A DNA stretch of 64,000 nt from contig NZ_LMUH01000025.1 of NCBI RefSeq assembly GCF_009766105.1, positions 377,190 through 441,189 of the forward strand, read 5' to 3'. The translations under genes were made by a program, and so were the position numbers. This document shows positions 5,701 to 59,736 of the stretch, in pieces. This stretch comes from Granulicella sp. S156. Lineage in GTDB: Bacteria > Acidobacteriota > Terriglobia > Terriglobales > Acidobacteriaceae. A model generated the notes under the pieces. The model worked only from the letters and a program-made list of their open reading frames with translations, made no database searches and was not told where the DNA came from. Position 1 is the first letter of the stretch. Every line of letters begins with the position of its first letter.

Positions 5701-6196
5701 CGTCACGGGAGGCTTCCTCTCGTTCTTCAATCATGCTGCGGGCCTCTCACACGCGATGTTCGCCAACAACGCGCAGCAGCCTACATTTACCTTCACCATT
5801 CGCGAATTGCCGAGTCAGGGCATTACCAACGCGACCATCGCCGTCGACAGCCAACAGATATCAAACCCCAACGAAGCCAAGACTTTCACCTGGACCGTAG
5901 GCTCCTCACAGAGCGCCACGCTCACTGCCAGCTATCTTGGCGCGAAGAACCTGCCTCTGCTGCAGTTCAATGGACCATGGGCGATCTTCCAGCTTATGAA
6001 TAAAGCGAAGTCTACCTGGACACCCAGTTCAGGGCACCTGGAGTTCCCGCTCGAGGTCTCTGGCACGCCGATTCATCTACCCGATGGCACGCCGCTGGTC
6101 GTCAAATTCGATGTCACCATGCAGCAGCCCATCGTCTTTGACCATAACTATCTTGCCGGCATGCGCTGTGTCGCCGATGTAGCCAGCGCGAAGTAA
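2741..6196 (+). CDS. tssM: Type VI secretion system membrane subunit TssM (IcmF family)
   Basis: TssM is the large inner-membrane scaffold of the type VI envelope complex. The product is 1151 residues, normal for IcmF proteins. It has two N-terminal membrane helices (about 5-27 and 31-53), a cytoplasmic NTPase-like domain, a third helix at about 443-466, and a long periplasmic part ending in a beta-rich domain. The P-loop region reads GEANSAKT (107-114), with Ala where Walker A normally has Gly, so nucleotide use may be weak. The start is GTG at 2741, with GGAG about 6 bases upstream. It is the last gene of the tssKLM unit. Confidence 0.95.
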   Translation: MSKKIFIILGLVVYLILIYVAAVLLKLSGSTMALFIGLLALVGIIAAILALWFMSKDPSFSAASDPALANERTALQTLLNEADHRLAQSPKAGVKQLSALPIIYVLGEANSAKTSIVLNSGLDSELLSGQIYREKAEVAATQFVNVWFSGPASVMEIGAPAWKQRGLWQTIIRHTLPNRIRAAASSRLPARAIVVCVNCERFLAGASPEELQASARQLNDRLREMSQTMGISLPVYVLFTKLDRVPKFAEYVKNLNQQESTQLLGATLPFLAANAGLYGERASQIIGQNFDELTYSLSEFRYDLLSREQEAAQRAAIYEFTRELRKLKQQLVEYLVELARPSQLSASPYIRGFFFTGVRANVIQESVSAAAVQPSASPLNAGATQFFSARAAQAAQVQQNPSVTSRKVAQWAFLAYLFPNLILQDRSALESSTASKQVNLMRRLALATVCFLLFAYFVMLIVSYANNQSLAGAIKKSQQNLPTLSSPTTELAAGTDLQQMDNLRSVLVQLQGYRKDGAPMSYRMGLYEGDDLLDAGLQTYFQHFRQLILSQTQTRIITALGQVPDTPAPGADYQATYDPLRAYLTTTSNHDKSTVDFLSPVLQQYYLNQRTLSLENQILLRRQLDFYSAYLKEKNPYTISPDMGVVTHARIYLSKFGGIERIYQNMLAAAGKTNPAIDFNRDFPGSAETVVAPHIVPAAFTKPGFTFMQDAILHPDRYFNGEVWVLGDQAGQSLDYANLTTNLTQRYSADYLDQWRTFLKTAAVVHYRSLPDAAAKLNTIEGATSPLLALFWTVSRNTAVSWPTIADAFQPTQALVPPSATNQYIGPGNTAYVNALIALQGSISQVAQNPGGATDPAAAGPIISAATTAHSAAQQTSQAFHIDQTAHVEGIVLKLMQDPIASTEALVRGMAPAQANGGGKSFCSGFNHMTAEFPFNSASTTPASPDEVKALLQPGSGALWQFYDSNLKTLIVQQGLQYAPAPNAPVRVTGGFLSFFNHAAGLSHAMFANNAQQPTFTFTIRELPSQGITNATIAVDSQQISNPNEAKTFTWTVGSSQSATLTASYLGAKNLPLLQFNGPWAIFQLMNKAKSTWTPSSGHLEFPLEVSGTPIHLPDGTPLVVKFDVTMQQPIVFDHNYLAGMRCVADVASAK

Positions 6197-20028: not shown

Positions 20029-21234
20029 TTACTGGTCGTTGCCTTCGGTCAGCTCTGCAGCGACTGGCTTGAGGTATCCCAACAGACCGCCTGTACCTTT
20101 ATTAGGACCGGCGGTGAAGTACAACTCGCCGGCGGGAGAGCCTGCGGGGTCGTAGCTGCTGGGAGTTGCGCTATTCGCTGGAGTGATGGCCCAGATGCCG
20201 TTGACGGCAAGGGGCTGGCCGCTCGCGTTCTGCAACAGGCCATCAAATTTACCGGTGGCCAGGTCATAGGCAGCGATCGTGCCACTGCCCTCGGTGGTGC
20301 CTCCGCCAGCGAACTGGCCGATCAACAGATCGTGGCTGAAACGCCCGAAGTCGAGGGGTGCAAGCGCTACGCCCCAAGGTGCATTGAGCTGATCTCCGTG
20401 CTCGAGGCGCTGCAGGAGTTTGCCTTGTGAAGTGAAGATGTCCACGTAGCCGAGCCCTGGACCATCTGTCTCGATGGGTGAGCCTTCCTGGTGGAGGACG
20501 AAGGTAACGACAATGTCGTTGCCGATGGCCTGCACGTTGAAGGGCACGAAGTGAGGCGGAAGCAGGAGATCGGTGAAGGGCTGTTCTTCGAAGCCGAGGA
20601 GGCTGCCGAGGAGTCCACCAATAGGCTGCTCTTGCAGGTGGACCTTATTGAAGGCATTGTCATAGACATCCACACGGCCTTTGTTAAAGTTGGCGGCATA
20701 CAGATAACGGTTGCCGTTCACAAGCGCGCTGGTGAGGCCGGTGTAGGCGGAGCCATCCGTCGTCTTGACGACAACGACCGCGTTCGTTGAAGGAGCCGCT
20801 TTTCCTGGGGTGATGCCGACGGTGGGGTTCCATCCCACGATAGCGCCATCCAGCGTGGAGAAGAGGAATGCGGCTGCAGGTCCTCCAGGCAGGATGAAAT
20901 CGGTCGTGCTGCCATTGGCGATTGTGCCTGTAGGAGTTCCTGCGGGAAAGGTTTTGTTCGTGGGATCAGCTTTCGGAATGGTAACGATCAGAGAGTTTTT
21001 GACGCCGGCACCGTTGAAGAGCGTGCTGAGGCCGGAGCCGTTGTCGGAGATCCACCAGGGACTGCTGGAACTGCGAGAGAGGCCCCAGGGATTAATCAGG
21101 GTTGGGTCGGTGACGGGAGCGACGCCAGAGGTGTTGGATACGAGATTGACCTGGGTATAGTGCTGCGCGAGAGCAGCAGTTCCCAGAGACAGAACCAGCG
21201 ATGCCTGAGTGGCCATACGCAAAAAGCTTTTCAT
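20029..21234 (-). CDS. TIGR03118-family exported protein
   Basis: The 401-residue secreted protein has a signal peptide (residues 1-23, cleavage near ALAQ) and the TIGR03118 opening NLVSNTSGVAPVTDPTLINP with WGLS next. A beta-propeller-like body follows (GLYAANFNKGRVDVYD-like segments, LNAPWGVALAP, GELYFTAGPN). The family is common in Acidobacteria and its function is unknown. ATG 21234 is preceded by AGGAGA at the right distance; the frame reaches upstream to 21300 but without a ribosome site. Confidence 0.85.
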   Translation of the reverse strand: MKSFLRMATQASLVLSLGTAALAQHYTQVNLVSNTSGVAPVTDPTLINPWGLSRSSSSPWWISDNGSGLSTLFNGAGVKNSLIVTIPKADPTNKTFPAGTPTGTIANGSTTDFILPGGPAAAFLFSTLDGAIVGWNPTVGITPGKAAPSTNAVVVVKTTDGSAYTGLTSALVNGNRYLYAANFNKGRVDVYDNAFNKVHLQEQPIGGLLGSLLGFEEQPFTDLLLPPHFVPFNVQAIGNDIVVTFVLHQEGSPIETDGPGLGYVDIFTSQGKLLQRLEHGDQLNAPWGVALAPLDFGRFSHDLLIGQFAGGGTTEGSGTIAAYDLATGKFDGLLQNASGQPLAVNGIWAITPANSATPSSYDPAGSPAGELYFTAGPNKGTGGLLGYLKPVAAELTEGNDQ

Positions 21235-27174: not shown

Positions 27175-30100
27175 TCAGAATAGTATTTTGGCCGCGATCT
27201 GAACCTCACGCGGGGTGTTAGCTTGAGAGGTAATGGCCCCAAAGGTCGTATCGGACACACCTACATCTGGTCCAGAGAAAACTGGAGTATTGGAGACATT
27301 GAAGGCCTCACACCGGAGTTCCAGCTTGATCTTTCCGGTCACAGCAAACTGCTTGAAGATGGAGGCATCCAGGTTGATCGCTCCTGGATTGCGTAGAGTT
27401 CCCGATGTGCGTGACATGTTTCCGAAGGTGTAGGTAGCTGGTTGTGAGAAGTCAGCTGTGTTGAAATACTTCGTCAGCTTATTCTTTACGCTTCCTCCAA
27501 TCGATGCATTCTGACCGTTCCAGTTAGGACGCTCTCCGGGGTTGAAGATATTGGCTACATTGTTAGCGGAGAAAGCGAGTGGTGTCCCCTTACTTGTAGT
27601 GAATATCCCATTGAACTGGTACCCGCCGAGGAGCGCATCGATCCAGCGGTTCCAGTTGGCCCCAAACCGCTCACCTCGCCCGAATGGAAGGCTATAAACA
27701 CCGCTGACAACTAAGATACGAGGCACATCAAAGGTAGATAACGAGTAAGAGTCTTGCATGAGAGGGACGCTCGCATCTTGATAGGTGCCATTGGAACCGA
27801 AGTTCGAATTATCAATGGAGTAGTCATCAAGAGACTTACTTCCCGTATAGGAGAAAAGAAGTGCAAGGTCCTTGCTGAAGCGCTTTTCGATGCGTATCTG
27901 GATCGAATCGTAGTGAGAGATTGCACCACTGTCCTGATAACCGTTGACGGTCGTGAACTGCGGGAACGGCGCGAGCAGATAACGTTGTTGAACCGTCGCC
28001 CCGGAGAGTGGTCCAGACACCTGGACCTTTCCCTGGAAGGGATTATTGGGAACTGGGTTCAACAGTTGACTGCCTAACGCGAGATCTGAGTCTGGAAGCT
28101 GGTTGCGGCTGGGGCTATAAGGCAGTTGCAGACCGTGGCTTCCAACATAAGTAACGCTGATCATCCAGTTCTGCGGCAACTGATATTCAACGCCTAGCTG
28201 ATAGTTTTCGGAGTATGGAGAGGGCTGGCGGCGCAGGCCAGCGACAATAGAGCTCCCTGTGCTGGTGAGGAGGCCCAAAGTATTTCCTGTCGACGGCACA
28301 AAGACGCCGCCAGGAAAAGGGTTGGAGAGGTAGTTATTGGGTGTGACGCCATCGAGAGTGCCGTAGTAGGTGGTCGTAGCGCGATAGCCTGTATTCTGAA
28401 CAGTCGCGGCGGCTTGATTGGGGCTATCGGCAAAAAAGATGCCAAATGCAGCGCGCACCACGAGCGGCGTAAAGGGATGATAGGCGAGCCCCACCCGCGG
28501 CGAAAAGTTCTTGTAGTTGGGATCCGTAACGTTTCGTGGATTGCCGTCGACTCCAGCGTATTCCAGGCCACCCGTCAAGCCTGTGAGTCCAGTCGTTGCT
28601 GCAAGGGGAGAAGGCACAGTGAGGTCGAGGTACGTCGTCTGATTGTGACGCTCCGTTCTTGGCCTAAAGAGGTCATATCGGATGCCCAGGTTGAGCGTTA
28701 GCTTATTGGTAGCTCTCCAGTCGTCCTGGAGGTAGGCCGCTCCATAGTGACTGAGCGTATTGACGATCTTGAAGTAATGCACGACCGACCCTGATCCGAG
28801 CCCCAGTAGAAATGAAGCAAACCCATCGCCGGCGCCGCTTGAGGCTGTGAGCGCGTTAGGACCTTGGGTGAAGTTCGTGCCAAAGCTGAAGGTGCCTGAC
28901 GCTTCACCATCGTCATTGATGTTGTTGGCCAAGATCCGAAACTCCCCACCAAAGTTAAGCGTGTGGCGCCCCAGCGTCTTCGTGTTGTTGATAAGAAACG
29001 AGTCTTGCAAATATCCGGCTTTTCCCTTGCCCGCCTGGCCGCCAGACCCGATCCCAAGATATCCAGCTGGACTTATTCCAGGAAATGTAAGTGCCGTGGA
29101 AGAACTCGCAAGTGCAGCGGCGGCCAGATAGGAGGGGAAACCCAGGGTTGTGGGATCAAATCCGTCGCCCGCAGTAGCAGTGTTGTAGTTGACGTGAGTT
29201 ACACCTGCCCTGAGCTCAAAGATGTACGTTGGATTTACAGCAAAGCTGTAGTCCAACCCGGCACCGATCGCAGGCTGTGAACCGGTCGATGCATTCTGTG
29301 CTACCTGAATCGCTGCTGGAAAAAGATGGCCGTAGCCTTGTACCGGATTCCTCTTGGAGAAGCGGAAGGCCACTCGTTGACGGTCGGAGATTACCTCATC
29401 CACTTTGATGTCGTACTGATTAATCGTAGAGAGCGATGGGGCGATCGCATAGAAGTTGTTTACAGGTCCAAACGCGCTCGTGTTGGGCAACGGATAATAC
29501 TTCAGAATATTGACAGCGACGGGATCAAATCGCGAGGGATCGATTACATTTCCTGGAAAGGGGGTTCTAATGTAGGTGGTAGTACCTGAGGTGACTACTT
29601 TCTGAGTGGTCGTCGGATCGTAGATGGTCACATTTTGAGGAAAGATTCCCGCTCGCTGCGCAAGGGTTGGCACTCTCGTCAAGGTTCCGCTAGGTGAGTC
29701 CTGGCGGAGGCCTTCGTAGTCGACAAAGAAGAACGTCTTATCGCGCCCATGGTAGAGCTTTGGGAGATACACCGGACCGCCGAGGCTGAAGCCGAACTGG
29801 TTCCGCTTTAAGCTTGGCAATGCGACTCCAGCCCTGTCGGAAAAGAAAGTGTTTGCATCCAGGTAAGAGTTGCGGAGGAAGTCGTAAACGCTCCCATGCA
29901 GGTTGTTCGTTCCGGATTTGTAGACGATGTTCATAATTCCACCGGCTGCATTGCCGAACTGCGACGAGAAGTTGCTGGTTTGTACCTTGAACTCCTGGGT
30001 GGCATCGACAGAGGGAAAGATGCTAAGAAGAGTGAAATCGTCCGACGGCGGTGCGGCTGGAACGCCATCCAGCAGAACGTCCGTGCTGCCGGACCGGGCG

Positions 30101-30687
30101 CCGTTCACATTGAACTGTAGACCGATAAAGGTAGAGTTTACGGAGCCTGTGACACCCGGGACGAGGAGAATCAGGCTATACACGTTCCTCTGATTCAACG
30201 GAAGGTTTTCAATGCTCTGGTTCCTGATGACTTGTCCGATGTCCGAGCTCTGGGTCTCCAATAGAGGTTCAGCGGAGTTCACCTGGACCGTCTCAGAGAT
30301 CGATCCTATCTTGAGGACGAGATCCACCTGTGCGTTTTGGTCTACATCCAGTACCAGACCTGATCTCACGAGCCGTTTGAATCCCGTGGCATCCACGGTG
30401 ACGCTATAGGGTCCTGGAGGCAGATTGGAGACAACGAACTGCCCCGCGCCGTCTGTCTGAGCCTTTACCGTCACCTGGGTTCCGGCGTTCGTAACGGACA
30501 CCACCGCATTTGGGATGACAGCAGCGCTCGAATCACGGACCGTACCCGCGAGTGAGGCTGTGATCCTTTGTGCATTTGCTACTGACAGGCTTGCCACCAG
30601 AAAAATGACAGAGCGCAGTAGAAGAAACCAAGCTTTGCGGGCCTGAAACAGATAGACCAAATTCAGTGGTGAAGGACTTCGGTGCAT
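27175..30687 (-). CDS. TonB-dependent receptor, Oar-like, with carboxypeptidase regulatory-like domain
   Basis: This is an outer-membrane importer of about 1170 residues. After a signal peptide (FLVASLSVANAQ), an Ig-like carboxypeptidase-regulatory domain (LAGTVRDSSAAVIPNA) leads into the plug (SIENLPLNQRNVYSLILLVPG, then VNGARSGSTDVLLDG). A very large beta-barrel ends in the aromatic KILF, the usual outer-membrane signal. Receptors of this kind bring oligosaccharides or peptides into the periplasm. GAGG sits about 6 bases before ATG 30687. The gene heads the unit with the GH31 enzyme, and an operator-like palindrome lies 155 bases upstream. Confidence 0.93.
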   Translation of the reverse strand: MHRSPSPLNLVYLFQARKAWFLLLRSVIFLVASLSVANAQRITASLAGTVRDSSAAVIPNAVVSVTNAGTQVTVKAQTDGAGQFVVSNLPPGPYSVTVDATGFKRLVRSGLVLDVDQNAQVDLVLKIGSISETVQVNSAEPLLETQSSDIGQVIRNQSIENLPLNQRNVYSLILLVPGVTGSVNSTFIGLQFNVNGARSGSTDVLLDGVPAAPPSDDFTLLSIFPSVDATQEFKVQTSNFSSQFGNAAGGIMNIVYKSGTNNLHGSVYDFLRNSYLDANTFFSDRAGVALPSLKRNQFGFSLGGPVYLPKLYHGRDKTFFFVDYEGLRQDSPSGTLTRVPTLAQRAGIFPQNVTIYDPTTTQKVVTSGTTTYIRTPFPGNVIDPSRFDPVAVNILKYYPLPNTSAFGPVNNFYAIAPSLSTINQYDIKVDEVISDRQRVAFRFSKRNPVQGYGHLFPAAIQVAQNASTGSQPAIGAGLDYSFAVNPTYIFELRAGVTHVNYNTATAGDGFDPTTLGFPSYLAAAALASSSTALTFPGISPAGYLGIGSGGQAGKGKAGYLQDSFLINNTKTLGRHTLNFGGEFRILANNINDDGEASGTFSFGTNFTQGPNALTASSGAGDGFASFLLGLGSGSVVHYFKIVNTLSHYGAAYLQDDWRATNKLTLNLGIRYDLFRPRTERHNQTTYLDLTVPSPLAATTGLTGLTGGLEYAGVDGNPRNVTDPNYKNFSPRVGLAYHPFTPLVVRAAFGIFFADSPNQAAATVQNTGYRATTTYYGTLDGVTPNNYLSNPFPGGVFVPSTGNTLGLLTSTGSSIVAGLRRQPSPYSENYQLGVEYQLPQNWMISVTYVGSHGLQLPYSPSRNQLPDSDLALGSQLLNPVPNNPFQGKVQVSGPLSGATVQQRYLLAPFPQFTTVNGYQDSGAISHYDSIQIRIEKRFSKDLALLFSYTGSKSLDDYSIDNSNFGSNGTYQDASVPLMQDSYSLSTFDVPRILVVSGVYSLPFGRGERFGANWNRWIDALLGGYQFNGIFTTSKGTPLAFSANNVANIFNPGERPNWNGQNASIGGSVKNKLTKYFNTADFSQPATYTFGNMSRTSGTLRNPGAINLDASIFKQFAVTGKIKLELRCEAFNVSNTPVFSGPDVGVSDTTFGAITSQANTPREVQIAAKILF

Positions 30688-31114
30688 CGCAACCTCAAAA
30701 TGGAACGAAATAGGAATGAAGCAGAACAGAACGGCCTGACTGAATCTCGTTGGGAAACGACCGCGCATCCACAATCAAAACCTATTCGTAGTAAATTGCC
30801 GAACCGAACGGAAACAAGGTTAATTTACCGTCTATGAAACCTGTTTACGGTAAACACTTATTTAGAATCATTGTGTTACATGAAACCTTGTGGGCTACAC
30901 AGCACACGCAGTCCTACGGCTTCCCAATTGAGTAATCAGGCATTCCCTCTCGCTGAATATGAGAGTTGTCCATAGTTGAGCAGGAAGATCTGAGACTACA
31001 GATAGTGAAACGGCGATCAACATGGGTCAGGTCCCAGTCCCTTCAAAACAAAACCTGGACTTTCAACCGCGTCCCTCATCCATAGCCTGAACCGCCGAAT
31101 TTGATGACATACGC
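30688..31114. other. Intergenic region upstream of the receptor/GH31 unit
   Basis: The 427 bases hold no plausible gene. The receptor side carries the TGTTTACGGTAAACA palindrome. Nothing else, apart from an AT-rich stretch, is recognisable in the half nearest the porin gene end. Confidence 0.6.
30842..30856. promoter_or_regulatory. LacI-like operator palindrome
   Basis: TGTTTACGGTAAACA is a perfect palindrome around one central base, 155 bases upstream of the receptor start. A further half-site TTTACCGT lies at 30824-30831. The form (TGTTTAC arms) is that of LacI/GalR-family sugar-responsive operators. No LacI-family gene is in the window; the regulator could be encoded elsewhere. Confidence 0.45.
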
Positions 31115-57240: not shown

Positions 57241-57287
57241 GTGAGTTTATCGCTTGACGCCCTCTCCGGATACGTTTATAAACTCAC
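57241..57287 (+). promoter_or_regulatory. Near-consensus sigma-70 promoter inside an inverted repeat
   Basis: TTGACG (57254-57259) and TATAAA (57277-57282) are spaced by exactly 17 bases. The pair is enclosed by GTGAGTTTAT (57241-57250) and ATAAACTCAC (57278-57287), perfect 10-bp arms that overlap the -10 box. A bound repressor could block it. The predicted start of transcription, about 7 bases after the -10, falls at or next to the ATG at 57290. Confidence 0.6.
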
Positions 57288-57289
57288 CT

Positions 57290-57346
57290 ATGTTTGATCT
57301 CATCCAGTCGCTTCAGCGCTTCCCCAGCCGCTGCTCTTGTTGTTGA
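57290..57346 (+). CDS. Possible leaderless Cys-rich leader peptide
   Basis: The 18-codon frame reads MFDLIQSLQRFPSRCSCC and stops. Its ATG lies at the predicted transcription start, so the message would have no 5' leader. Three of the last four codons are for Cys, as in the leaderless polycysteine reading frames that act as cysteine-responsive attenuators in mycobacteria. The downstream gene is a protease, not a sulfur gene, which leaves the purpose open. Confidence 0.4.
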   Translation: MFDLIQSLQRFPSRCSCC

Positions 57347-57416
57347 TCTATACCAATCCTCCCCTCACAATTCTTTACTGATAGCCAGCATCTGCTTTTT
57401 TGCTGTCTTTGCCGTT

Positions 57417-57482
57417 ATGCGCCATTTTGATCATGGCCTAATAACGGTCAAGCCGCTTCTCGCCCAGATGCCTTGCTGCTAA
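57417..57482 (+). CDS. Second short frame ending Cys-Cys-stop in the same leader
   Basis: A 21-codon frame starts at 57417 and ends AQMPCC-stop. It has no visible ribosome site. Two Cys-Cys-stop endings within 140 bases of one leader may be chance, but they fit repeated sensing of Cys supply. The small frame is a low-confidence call. Confidence 0.25.
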   Translation: MRHFDHGLITVKPLLAQMPCC

Positions 57483-57497
57483 CAGCTTTATAGATCC

Positions 57498-57532
57498 CAC
57501 CTGTTTCCAGCTTTCTGGACACAGGTGTTTCT
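57498..57532 (+). terminator. Terminator-like hairpin in the sedolisin leader
   Basis: CACCTGT (57498-57504) pairs with ACAGGTG (57521-57527), and CCAG (57507-57510) pairs with CTGG (57515-57518) inside, with a TT/AC internal mismatch and a CTTT loop. TTTCT follows. It lies after both short frames, where an attenuator would be expected. Confidence 0.4.
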
Positions 57533-57672
57533 AGACGCTGCCCGCATTTGCAGGAAGAGCGAATAAATTTGCTCCGTGAATCTCTGCGCCTTTTTTTAGG
57601 AGATCACTTACCTGCATCTCTTATGCCGTAAACATGCTGATACTCTCGTCAGTCTTATTTCAAGGAGAAGTC

Positions 57673-59736
57673 ATGATATCCCGCAAGATCTCCGCTAAAA
57701 CATCCTGGGCAGCCTTATCGCTGTTCTCTTTGTCTCCGCTCGCCGTTCATCACGCCCTGGCTCAAGCCACGCCGAATGTATCCAAGGCCGTTGGGATCGC
57801 AACGGATCTCGGCCCCGTGGATCGCAATCAATCGCAGACCCTTACTGTTGTGCTCAAAACACACAATAAGTCCGACTTCGATAAGGCGGTAGAGGATCTT
57901 TACAACCCCGCATCTGCCAGCTACCACCAGTGGTTTTCCGCGAAGGACTTTGAAAAGTATGCACCGACTTCCGCAGAACTGGAGACCGTCAAGCAGGAGT
58001 TGACCAAACAAGGCTTCCAGGTCGTATCCACCGATCCACAAAATTTCTCGATCCGTGTAAGTGGAACCGCCGGTAACGTCGATGATGCCTTCCAAACCGA
58101 GCTTCACAACTTCAGCTACAACGGCAAAACCTTTCAAGCGCATATCCATGATGCGAAGCTACAGGGTCAGGCGGGACAACTGATTGACTCCGTAGCTGGC
58201 CTCGATCGCCATCAAAGCCATTCCCTGCTCAGCGTCGCCCAGAACCCCCGCACCAAGACACCACTCTTCAAAAAGTCGGTAACCCCTGCCGACGCAGGCT
58301 CAACTCTCCTCAGCGAAATCACAGACATTCCGCTCTCTGCGCCTGCACTCACCACCTTCACCACAACAGGAGCCTCACTCCCTCTGGCCGTCTACTACGG
58401 CAACGTATACGACAGCAACAGCAACCTTACGGTTTCCTATACTCCCGCACAACTGCAGTCGCACTATGGCCTAACGTCCCTCATCAAAGAAGGCTATGAC
58501 GGCACCGGTCAAACCATTGCCCTGGTGGAAGCCTATGGTTACGCAGCCGCTGAGACGGATGCGAATGCAGCTGCAACTGCCTTCGGTCTGCCAGCACTCA
58601 CCTCGAAGAACTTCTCTGTCATCTACCCTGAGGGTAAGCCGCTCAATCCCAGTGCCGCTGATTTGACGGGATGGACAACCGAGATCGCGCTCGACATTCA
58701 ATCCGCTCATGCGATTGCCCCGGGAGCCAAAATCCTCGTCGTGGCCTCGGCTGGTCAGGATAATGAAGACCAGATCGCATCGCTCCAATACATCATTACC
58801 AACAAGCTCGCCAACACCGTATCCAGTAGCTGGGAAAATGACGACGAGATACTCTCAGGCCCTGCCGAGGAAGATGCCTTCAACTCGGTTCTCGAGCTTG
58901 GCGCCGCAGCAGGCATCTCCTTCCAGTTTTCCAGTGGAGACGGCGGCGACCTCGGCCTCGGAACCCCATCAGGGTCCGTCAGCGTACCTTCGAATTCGCC
59001 CTATGCCACCGCTGTTGGCGGCACCAGCATCCTCAACAACACCACCGGCACCGGACAGACTGTTACCGGATGGGGTAACGATGTCGACTACATCAATCTC
59101 GGCGGCCCTGTCGATCCTCCCACGAGTGAGAGCTTCTTCAACGGTGGCGCAGGTGGTGGAGAGAGTCTCTACTTCGCCAAACCCTCCTGGCAAAGTGCTC
59201 TTCCTGGAACAGGTCGCCAGGTGCCGGATGTCTCTGCACTCGCCGATCCTTTCACTGGATTCCCTATCATCTATACCTCCAGCGGTGTGCAATACGCTGA
59301 AGCCGGAATCGGCGGGACCAGCCTGGCGAGTCCTATCTTTACCGCCATCTGGGCTATTGCCGACCAATACAACGGCAAGCCGCTCGGTCACGCCGGCCCC
59401 GCCGTCGCCAAGCTGAAGTCCGGTCAAATTACGGATGTCCTGCCTACCTCCAGCCTCGAAACCTCCAACGTCTCCGGTACGGTCTATGACTCAAACGGCC
59501 CTACTTTTTACTCCCAGAGCGGACTCTGGGGTGGTCTCCTCTATTCCCAGACAAACTTCGTGAGCGCAACCTGGGCTCTCAACACGACTGAGTCTGTAGC
59601 AATCACCTTTGGGACCGACTCGTCCCTCACGGTGACTCCCGGCTGGGATAACGTCACCGGTTACGGTGAGCCCAACGGTCTGCCGTTCATCCAGGGCGTC
59701 ACTGGTAAGACAAAGGGAGCTGCCCTCACCCAATAG
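57673..59736 (+). CDS. Sedolisin-type acid serine-carboxyl protease (S53)
   Basis: The 687-residue secreted protease is active at low pH. A signal peptide (ending HALAQ) is followed by a pro-domain of about 190 residues (activation domain, ASASYHQWFSAKDFEKYAPT) and an S53 catalytic domain. The catalytic residues are Glu 337 and Asp 341 in TEIALDIQSAHAIAPGAK, the oxyanion Asp 423 in SSGDGGDLG, and Ser 550 in GGTSLASPIF. The C-terminal DNVTGYGEPNG supplies the calcium site. AAGGAG lies about 7 bases before ATG 57673. It is followed by a strong terminator. Confidence 0.93.
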   Translation: MISRKISAKTSWAALSLFSLSPLAVHHALAQATPNVSKAVGIATDLGPVDRNQSQTLTVVLKTHNKSDFDKAVEDLYNPASASYHQWFSAKDFEKYAPTSAELETVKQELTKQGFQVVSTDPQNFSIRVSGTAGNVDDAFQTELHNFSYNGKTFQAHIHDAKLQGQAGQLIDSVAGLDRHQSHSLLSVAQNPRTKTPLFKKSVTPADAGSTLLSEITDIPLSAPALTTFTTTGASLPLAVYYGNVYDSNSNLTVSYTPAQLQSHYGLTSLIKEGYDGTGQTIALVEAYGYAAAETDANAAATAFGLPALTSKNFSVIYPEGKPLNPSAADLTGWTTEIALDIQSAHAIAPGAKILVVASAGQDNEDQIASLQYIITNKLANTVSSSWENDDEILSGPAEEDAFNSVLELGAAAGISFQFSSGDGGDLGLGTPSGSVSVPSNSPYATAVGGTSILNNTTGTGQTVTGWGNDVDYINLGGPVDPPTSESFFNGGAGGGESLYFAKPSWQSALPGTGRQVPDVSALADPFTGFPIIYTSSGVQYAEAGIGGTSLASPIFTAIWAIADQYNGKPLGHAGPAVAKLKSGQITDVLPTSSLETSNVSGTVYDSNGPTFYSQSGLWGGLLYSQTNFVSATWALNTTESVAITFGTDSSLTVTPGWDNVTGYGEPNGLPFIQGVTGKTKGAALTQ

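Follow-up and report, generated by a model that had tools for sequence, protein, structure and literature searches.

Leaderless cysteine frames and attenuators in other bacteria

In mycobacteria, leaderless frames rich in Cys codons regulate the genes downstream of them via cysteine-dependent elongation (PMC4633059; PMC9031893). These polycysteine leaderless short open reading frames (ORFs) are attributed to Shell et al. 2015 (PMC4633059) and Canestrari et al. 2020 (doi 10.1111/mmi.14498, via PMC9031893 and PMC9094748). Leaderless genes have been predicted at 13.3% in Acidobacteria, in three of three genomes (PMC3160421). In a search of the literature, leaderless cysteine attenuators were described from mycobacteria alone, and none of the papers found dealt with acidobacterial ones.

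The leader described here lies in a 64-kb window (the whole stretch of Granulicella sp. S156 DNA that was analysed), upstream of a gene for a secreted protease. It resembles the mycobacterial polycysteine ORFs in having a leaderless ATG (predicted here), a short frame, Cys codons clustered near the end of that frame, and relatives positioned 5′ of genes that, in many cases, have a role in sulfur metabolism (the rhodanese cysA2 in mycobacteria; rhodanese/cysteine dioxygenase and sulfite reductase in Acidobacteriaceae). Unlike them, it belongs to another phylum, is separated from its gene by a long gap (326 nt), and is one of a group that has outer-membrane proteins and an exported, sulfur-free protease among its targets; the likeness is one of design, and none of sequence would be expected. 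With the leader peptides of the trp, his and ilv attenuators it has in common a regulatory run of codons in a short upstream frame and a variable peptide. In contrast to those, no intrinsic terminator/antiterminator pair was found in it, its start is predicted to be leaderless, and the regulated gene would be that of a scavenging protease rather than a biosynthetic operon.

The promoter and the cysteine frame

The predicted promoter (+ strand) comprises a −35 element TTGACG (57254–57259) and a −10 element TATAAA (57277–57282), separated by a spacer of 17 nt. The TTGAC of the −35 element is kept in the paralogous leader, in L046, and in the leaders of Terracidiphilus gabretensis and Acidicapsa dinghuensis (all described below), and the −10 element of the homologous leaders is TATAAA, TATATT or TACAAT. 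Judged by a distance of 7 nt from the −10 element, transcription is predicted to start at or beside an ATG (57289–57290, +). This ATG, at 57290 and 7 nt past TATAAA, opens a predicted leaderless upstream ORF (uORF) of 18 codons, MFDLIQSLQRFPSRCSCC, which ends in CSCC-stop (57290–57346, +); the positions given for promoter and frame in the first-pass annotation were all accurate. The putative regulatory codons TGC-TCT-TGT-TGT (57332–57343, +) stand immediately 5′ of the TGA. A promoter, an ATG at the distance of +1 and Cys codons in frame with it occur together far more often than chance would give. The Cys codons fall within codons 15–18, later than in most members of the class of leaders described below, and the window leader is an atypical member of that class, both in its late, stop-adjacent Cys codons and in having a protease as its target.

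A secreted protease without internal sulfur

The uORF is followed by a 5′ untranslated region (UTR) of 326 nt (57347–57672, +), which includes the Shine–Dalgarno sequence AAGGAG (57662–57667, +), and then by a gene for a secreted S53 (kumamolisin/sedolisin-type) protease of 687 amino acids (57673–59736, +). The cysteine frame was rightly said to precede a protease, the start of which was placed at 57673, 57634 being merely its first in-frame ATG. The protein matches the Pro-kumamolisin activation domain (PF09286, 1.4e-23) and kumamolisin itself (1t1e, 2e-26), with the E..D and GGTS motifs aligned, and so has both the activation domain and the catalytic domain by which S53 peptidases are recognised. 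The pro-domain, the catalytic domain, ExxxD and GGTSxxxP are common to kumamolisin, sedolisin and the window protease, which differs from the other two in the absence of Cys and of internal Met, and in its inferred control by a leader with Cys codons.

The protease contains no Cys, and its only Met is the initiator. Its internal Cys plus Met content is 0, compared with about 18 expected from the genome average, the lowest sulfur content among 424 ORFs of at least 400 amino acids in 1.66 Mb sampled from its own genome. This lack of Cys and Met is the sole link of the window locus, with its S53 protease as target, to sulfur. Among orthologs of the protease, those that carry the leader have 0–1 internal sulfur residues and those without a recognised leader have 1–13 (Mann–Whitney p = 0.001; p = 0.011 for orthologs at least 50% identical), a comparison that is partly confounded by phylogeny; the contents of W, H, K and Q did not differ in this way between the same two sets. 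One ortholog (L076) is sulfur-poor yet lacks a recognised leader. The protease at L035/L047 likewise has 0 Cys and 0 internal Met; its contig stops 147 nt before the gene, and a leader of this kind is predicted to lie there.

Low sulfur content is not exclusive to leader-controlled genes. An exported protein of 401 amino acids in the window (20032–21234, −) contains just one Cys/Met residue apart from the initiator, and no Cys leader could be recognised before its gene; immediately 5′ of it is the inverted repeat CCTTTGCTCC. Elsewhere in the window, a protein of 1197 amino acids (27178–30768, −) has a Cys+Met content of only 0.58%, and upstream of it is a Cys-rich GTG frame, beginning VCCVAHKVSCNTM, with no clear promoter. 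At three further loci (L182, L184, L185), an exported protein of 146 amino acids, with no Cys, with the initiator as its only Met and with no match to a Pfam family, is encoded behind the predicted leaderless frame MHFxSAARYCCPxSL.

Homologous leaders

A second copy of the leader lies 65 kb away in the same genome, at G000:C23:499730-500168, and is 68% identical across 439 nt. Its promoter is retained, an ATG stands at the distance predicted for the transcription start, and SSCC follows in frame; an insertion of 1 nt has removed the stop. No recognisable protease gene follows this copy, and no significant match to a remnant of the protease was found there by tblastn. The copy (L002, L228) lies about 220 nt upstream of an ORF for a LuxR-type regulator.

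The closest S53 proteins in other genomes of the genus are only about 30–38% identical to the window protease, which is therefore not a core gene of the genus; orthologs at 40–81% identity occur in other genera. The ortholog at 81% (L046) is preceded by TTGACT-17-TATATT-6-ATG with the frame MFDRVQLLRSLPSLRTC, and its UTR can be aligned along the whole length; promoter and +1-distance ATG are kept, and the frame ends in Cys, the single Cys left in it. The leader in T. gabretensis (L036/L049; protease 65% identical) reads TTGACA-16-TACAAT-7-ATG with the frame MAFEPVIPTLPTQDAARCC; it cannot be aligned to that of the window, yet carries a frame ending RCC-stop at the leaderless distance. At L052 (protease 55% identical) the arrangement is TAGACA-17-TATATT-6-ATG with the frame MLPAYIYPACYSCSIDVGTGLHTH. 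A weaker candidate frame in A. dinghuensis ends in Cys and has its ATG at 12 nt; the weaker counterparts of the uORF are those at L050/L041. At the orthologous protease loci L048, L051, L076, L077, L075, L042 and L053, no recognisable leader is present.

Where the frame occurs before orthologous proteases (L046, L049, L052), its position is conserved and its peptide is divergent, and the feature that recurs is a cluster of Cys codons in a short frame: CSCC-stop in the window, and SSCC, RCC-stop and RTC-stop in relatives. The first-pass annotation had named a Cys-Cys-stop kept behind variable codons in relatives as support for its reading. T. gabretensis agrees with this, the genome G302 agrees in part (one Cys before the stop), and the several orthologs without a recognisable leader do not. 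The uORFs of the window and L046 differ at 6 first, 5 second and 4 third positions of codons. No purifying pattern on the codons was seen in this comparison, which implies that the peptide itself is not under selection; this would be expected of an attenuator that reads codons, and equally of a frame without function.

A class of cysteine frames in Acidobacteriaceae

Similar frames were sought across genomes. When the gap was set to 7 nt, a CC-stop pattern gave 4 matches in 300 Acidobacteriaceae genomes and 0 in controls, two of the 4 being the window site and the leader of the T. gabretensis ortholog; with the strict CC-stop pattern, the window site was the sole match in 399 genomes of the taxonomic class. 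A relaxed pattern (TTGAC-N17/18-TANNNT-N6-ATG with TGYTGY within 36 nt, no stop being demanded) was found in 98 of 300 Acidobacteriaceae genomes when the ATG was at 6 nt, compared with 29 of 300 when it was at 13 nt; several of the 13-nt control matches carry another ATG, at 7 nt, and are probably true members. At 26 of 30 automatically retrieved loci, the Cys-Cys lies in a short frame opened by the ATG. Within 1.66 Mb of unselected sequence from the genome of the window (a set that includes the window site and the paralogous leader), C.?C occurred in 4 of 5 short frames at 6–7 nt and in 4 of 25 at other spacings (p = 0.011). The sole short frame at 6–7 nt in 400 kb of G302 is Cys-rich, MRILNVLHCCRSSQ...CCC.

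About 11 further candidates were found in the window's own genome. The Cys codons of its candidates are 32 TGT and 9 TGC, compared with 26% TGT in its long ORFs, and the uORFs of the class as a whole use mostly TGT. The ATG lies at 6 nt in 72 of 78 catalogued sites, most of which had been selected for that distance. Members have Cys codons in common, not sequence, and none of nine class peptides scored above cut-off against NCBIfam models. The element is one member of a set that is widespread in the Acidobacteriaceae, which makes the observation broader than the first-pass annotation had it.

Several arrangements within this set were observed in their own right. Divergent predicted leaderless Cys frames, MPSISTMQCSRRCCCSCR and MFSLAASRCCRCSLPLEWTSACARL, lie at L107:2600-3350 (G000:C23, about 643600–644350) between a gene for a DUF6152 protein and one for a second exported protein, and similar layouts occur at L171, L229, L232 and L235. 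Four predicted leaderless Cys frames within about 12 kb (L222; G000:C4:376501-396500) precede genes for a 1290-amino-acid outer-membrane beta-barrel protein, an ankyrin protein, an exported protein with a redoxin domain and an unassigned protein; this may be a sulfur-economy island. In the leaders of three sulfite reductases (L167, L168, L169), the peptides have the same tail behind their Cys cluster, ...RTAKAMA, which suggests a constraint at the nucleotide level 3′ of the Cys codons. Cys leaders with a motif resembling CC.SSQ.CP.ELSG......CC (L224, L178, L254, L160, and L279 on the minus strand at 5943) precede, in part, outer-membrane proteins or proteins with carboxypeptidase-regulatory domains, and their peptides are more conserved than those of the rest of the class.

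The genes behind the leaders

The class as a whole is located 5′ of genes of cysteine and sulfur metabolism. Among 49 downstream proteins, which had been picked for a readable ORF and thus form a sample that is not strictly random, Pfam matches identified 11 ferredoxin-type nitrite/sulfite reductases (NIR_SIR), 9 AhpC/TSA proteins (1-Cys peroxiredoxins and exported thioredoxin-like proteins among them), 5 outer-membrane beta-barrel proteins (OMP), 2 proteins with a PAPS_reduct domain, 2 fusions of cysteine dioxygenase and rhodanese (CDO_I 2, rhodanese 2), 2 carbonic anhydrases and 2 YeiH-type proteins; also represented were DUF6152 proteins, a NIL-domain ABC transporter, an FGE-sulfatase-type protein and a LysR regulator. 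By these assignments, the genes behind the leaders constitute a sulfur-economy set. That such frames usually precede genes of sulfur uptake suggests a switch that responds to a shortage of cysteine.

A probable cysteine-responsive attenuator

The leader is likely (with a probability of about 0.7) to be a cysteine-responsive attenuator, similar to the mycobacterial polycysteine ORFs, that controls a sulfur-sparing scavenging protease. The RNA would begin with the A of the uORF ATG or immediately beside it, and 70S ribosomes would begin directly on the leaderless frame of 18 codons. When Cys-tRNA is scarce, the ribosome would, on the mycobacterial precedent, stall at TGC-TCT-TGT-TGT before the stop, and this stalling would alter the fate of the structured 5′ UTR, allowing the mRNA of the protease to be completed or to be translated. 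When cysteine is ample, the ribosome would finish and depart, and expression would be attenuated via Rho-dependent termination or a rearrangement of the RNA; the long, untranslated and structured stretch behind the uORF would suit Rho-dependent polarity. The output would be a nearly sulfur-free enzyme that frees sulfur amino acids from environmental protein at no sulfur cost. A leaderless Cys attenuator had already been suggested for this site, and is supported by the orthologs, by the large number of comparable leaders in front of sulfur genes and by the lack of sulfur in the protease; the operator that was part of that suggestion found no support.

Two routes by which stalling might act were rejected. 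Attenuation by an intrinsic terminator is not favoured, as there is no terminator-like site: the terminator scan found none from the uORF to the protease start, and the hairpin CACCTG..CCAG/CTGG..CAGGTG (57498–57527, +) is without a proper T run and is lost in the homologs. Unmasking of the Shine–Dalgarno sequence by a stalled ribosome had no consistent effect when about 70 leaders were folded; for the window, the modelled unpaired fraction was 0.27 free and 0.30 stalled.

Translation of the leaderless uORF could matter in its own right, by loading or clearing ribosomes or by insulating the 5′ end of the RNA, with the Cys content incidental. The lack of a codon-position signal, the variation in Cys number (1–2) and the paralog without a stop would fit this, but the enrichment of Cys in predicted leaderless frames across the Acidobacteriaceae, their bias towards TGT, the sulfur genes that follow them and the lack of sulfur in the protease make it rather improbable.

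Structure of the 5′ untranslated region

The whole leader folds better than shuffled sequences (z −2.8). The hairpin GAGCGAAT-AAATTTGCTC (57557–57574, +) is present in the window, L046 and the paralog; a second, ATCTCT...AGGAGAT (57580–57604, +), lies beside an invariant GGAGATCACTT block. Both are retained in the three homologs, with few compensatory changes. This folding, together with the conservation of UTR nucleotides in the three homologs and indels of a non-coding kind, is what would be expected if the functional element were an RNA motif or structure (TTGTTGWTGA plus hairpins), riboswitch-like or the target of a small RNA, and the frame its by-product. However, no Rfam family matches the leader, the T. 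gabretensis leader has its RCC-stop frame in spite of being unalignable, and Cys codons rather than sequence are common to the class. We consider an RNA motif of this kind less probable still than an incidental Cys content.

The inverted repeat

The promoter had been described as lying inside perfect arms that could serve as an operator. The arms of 10 bp, GTGAGTTTAT (57241–57250) and ATAAACTCAC (57278–57287), neither assigned to a strand, are perfectly complementary and lie where they were reported; the −10 element overlaps the right arm, so that the promoter is not wholly between them. A regulator that binds this repeat could repress the protease gene, the frame being non-functional, and the perfect arms across the −10 element are of the form that such an operator would take. 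However, perfect 10-bp arms with a loop of 3–60 nt occur at about 16 separate places in the 64-kb window (51 overlapping 10-mers), i.e., about one per 4 kb, and the repeat alone is therefore unremarkable. Furthermore, it is retained neither in the 68%-identical paralog, where the left arm is gone, nor in L046, where that arm is not conserved, although both keep the promoter. Because the repeat is unconserved in these two homologs the operator idea fails, and it is very improbable. Chance, which easily yields a short frame ending in Cys behind a promoter at a single locus, is the least credible explanation, being largely refuted by recurrence at orthologous loci and by the enrichment across the family.

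Implications for the Acidobacteriaceae

There is about an even chance that the Acidobacteriaceae have a sulfur-starvation regulon organised in cis, in which many genes across the family each have their own leaderless Cys-codon sensor, no shared regulator protein is needed, and the exported members, the window protease among them, have been purged of sulfur amino acids. If so, the purge would mean that scavenging enzymes can still be made once cysteine is gone. A second abundant set of such leaders would imply either that the design has two origins or that its age and spread have been underestimated, and would assign roles to small frames, so far unannotated, in one of the major phyla of soil. 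The coupling of cysteine sensing by translation to secreted proteins free of sulfur would provide a directly testable link to the way in which soil bacteria gain organic sulfur.
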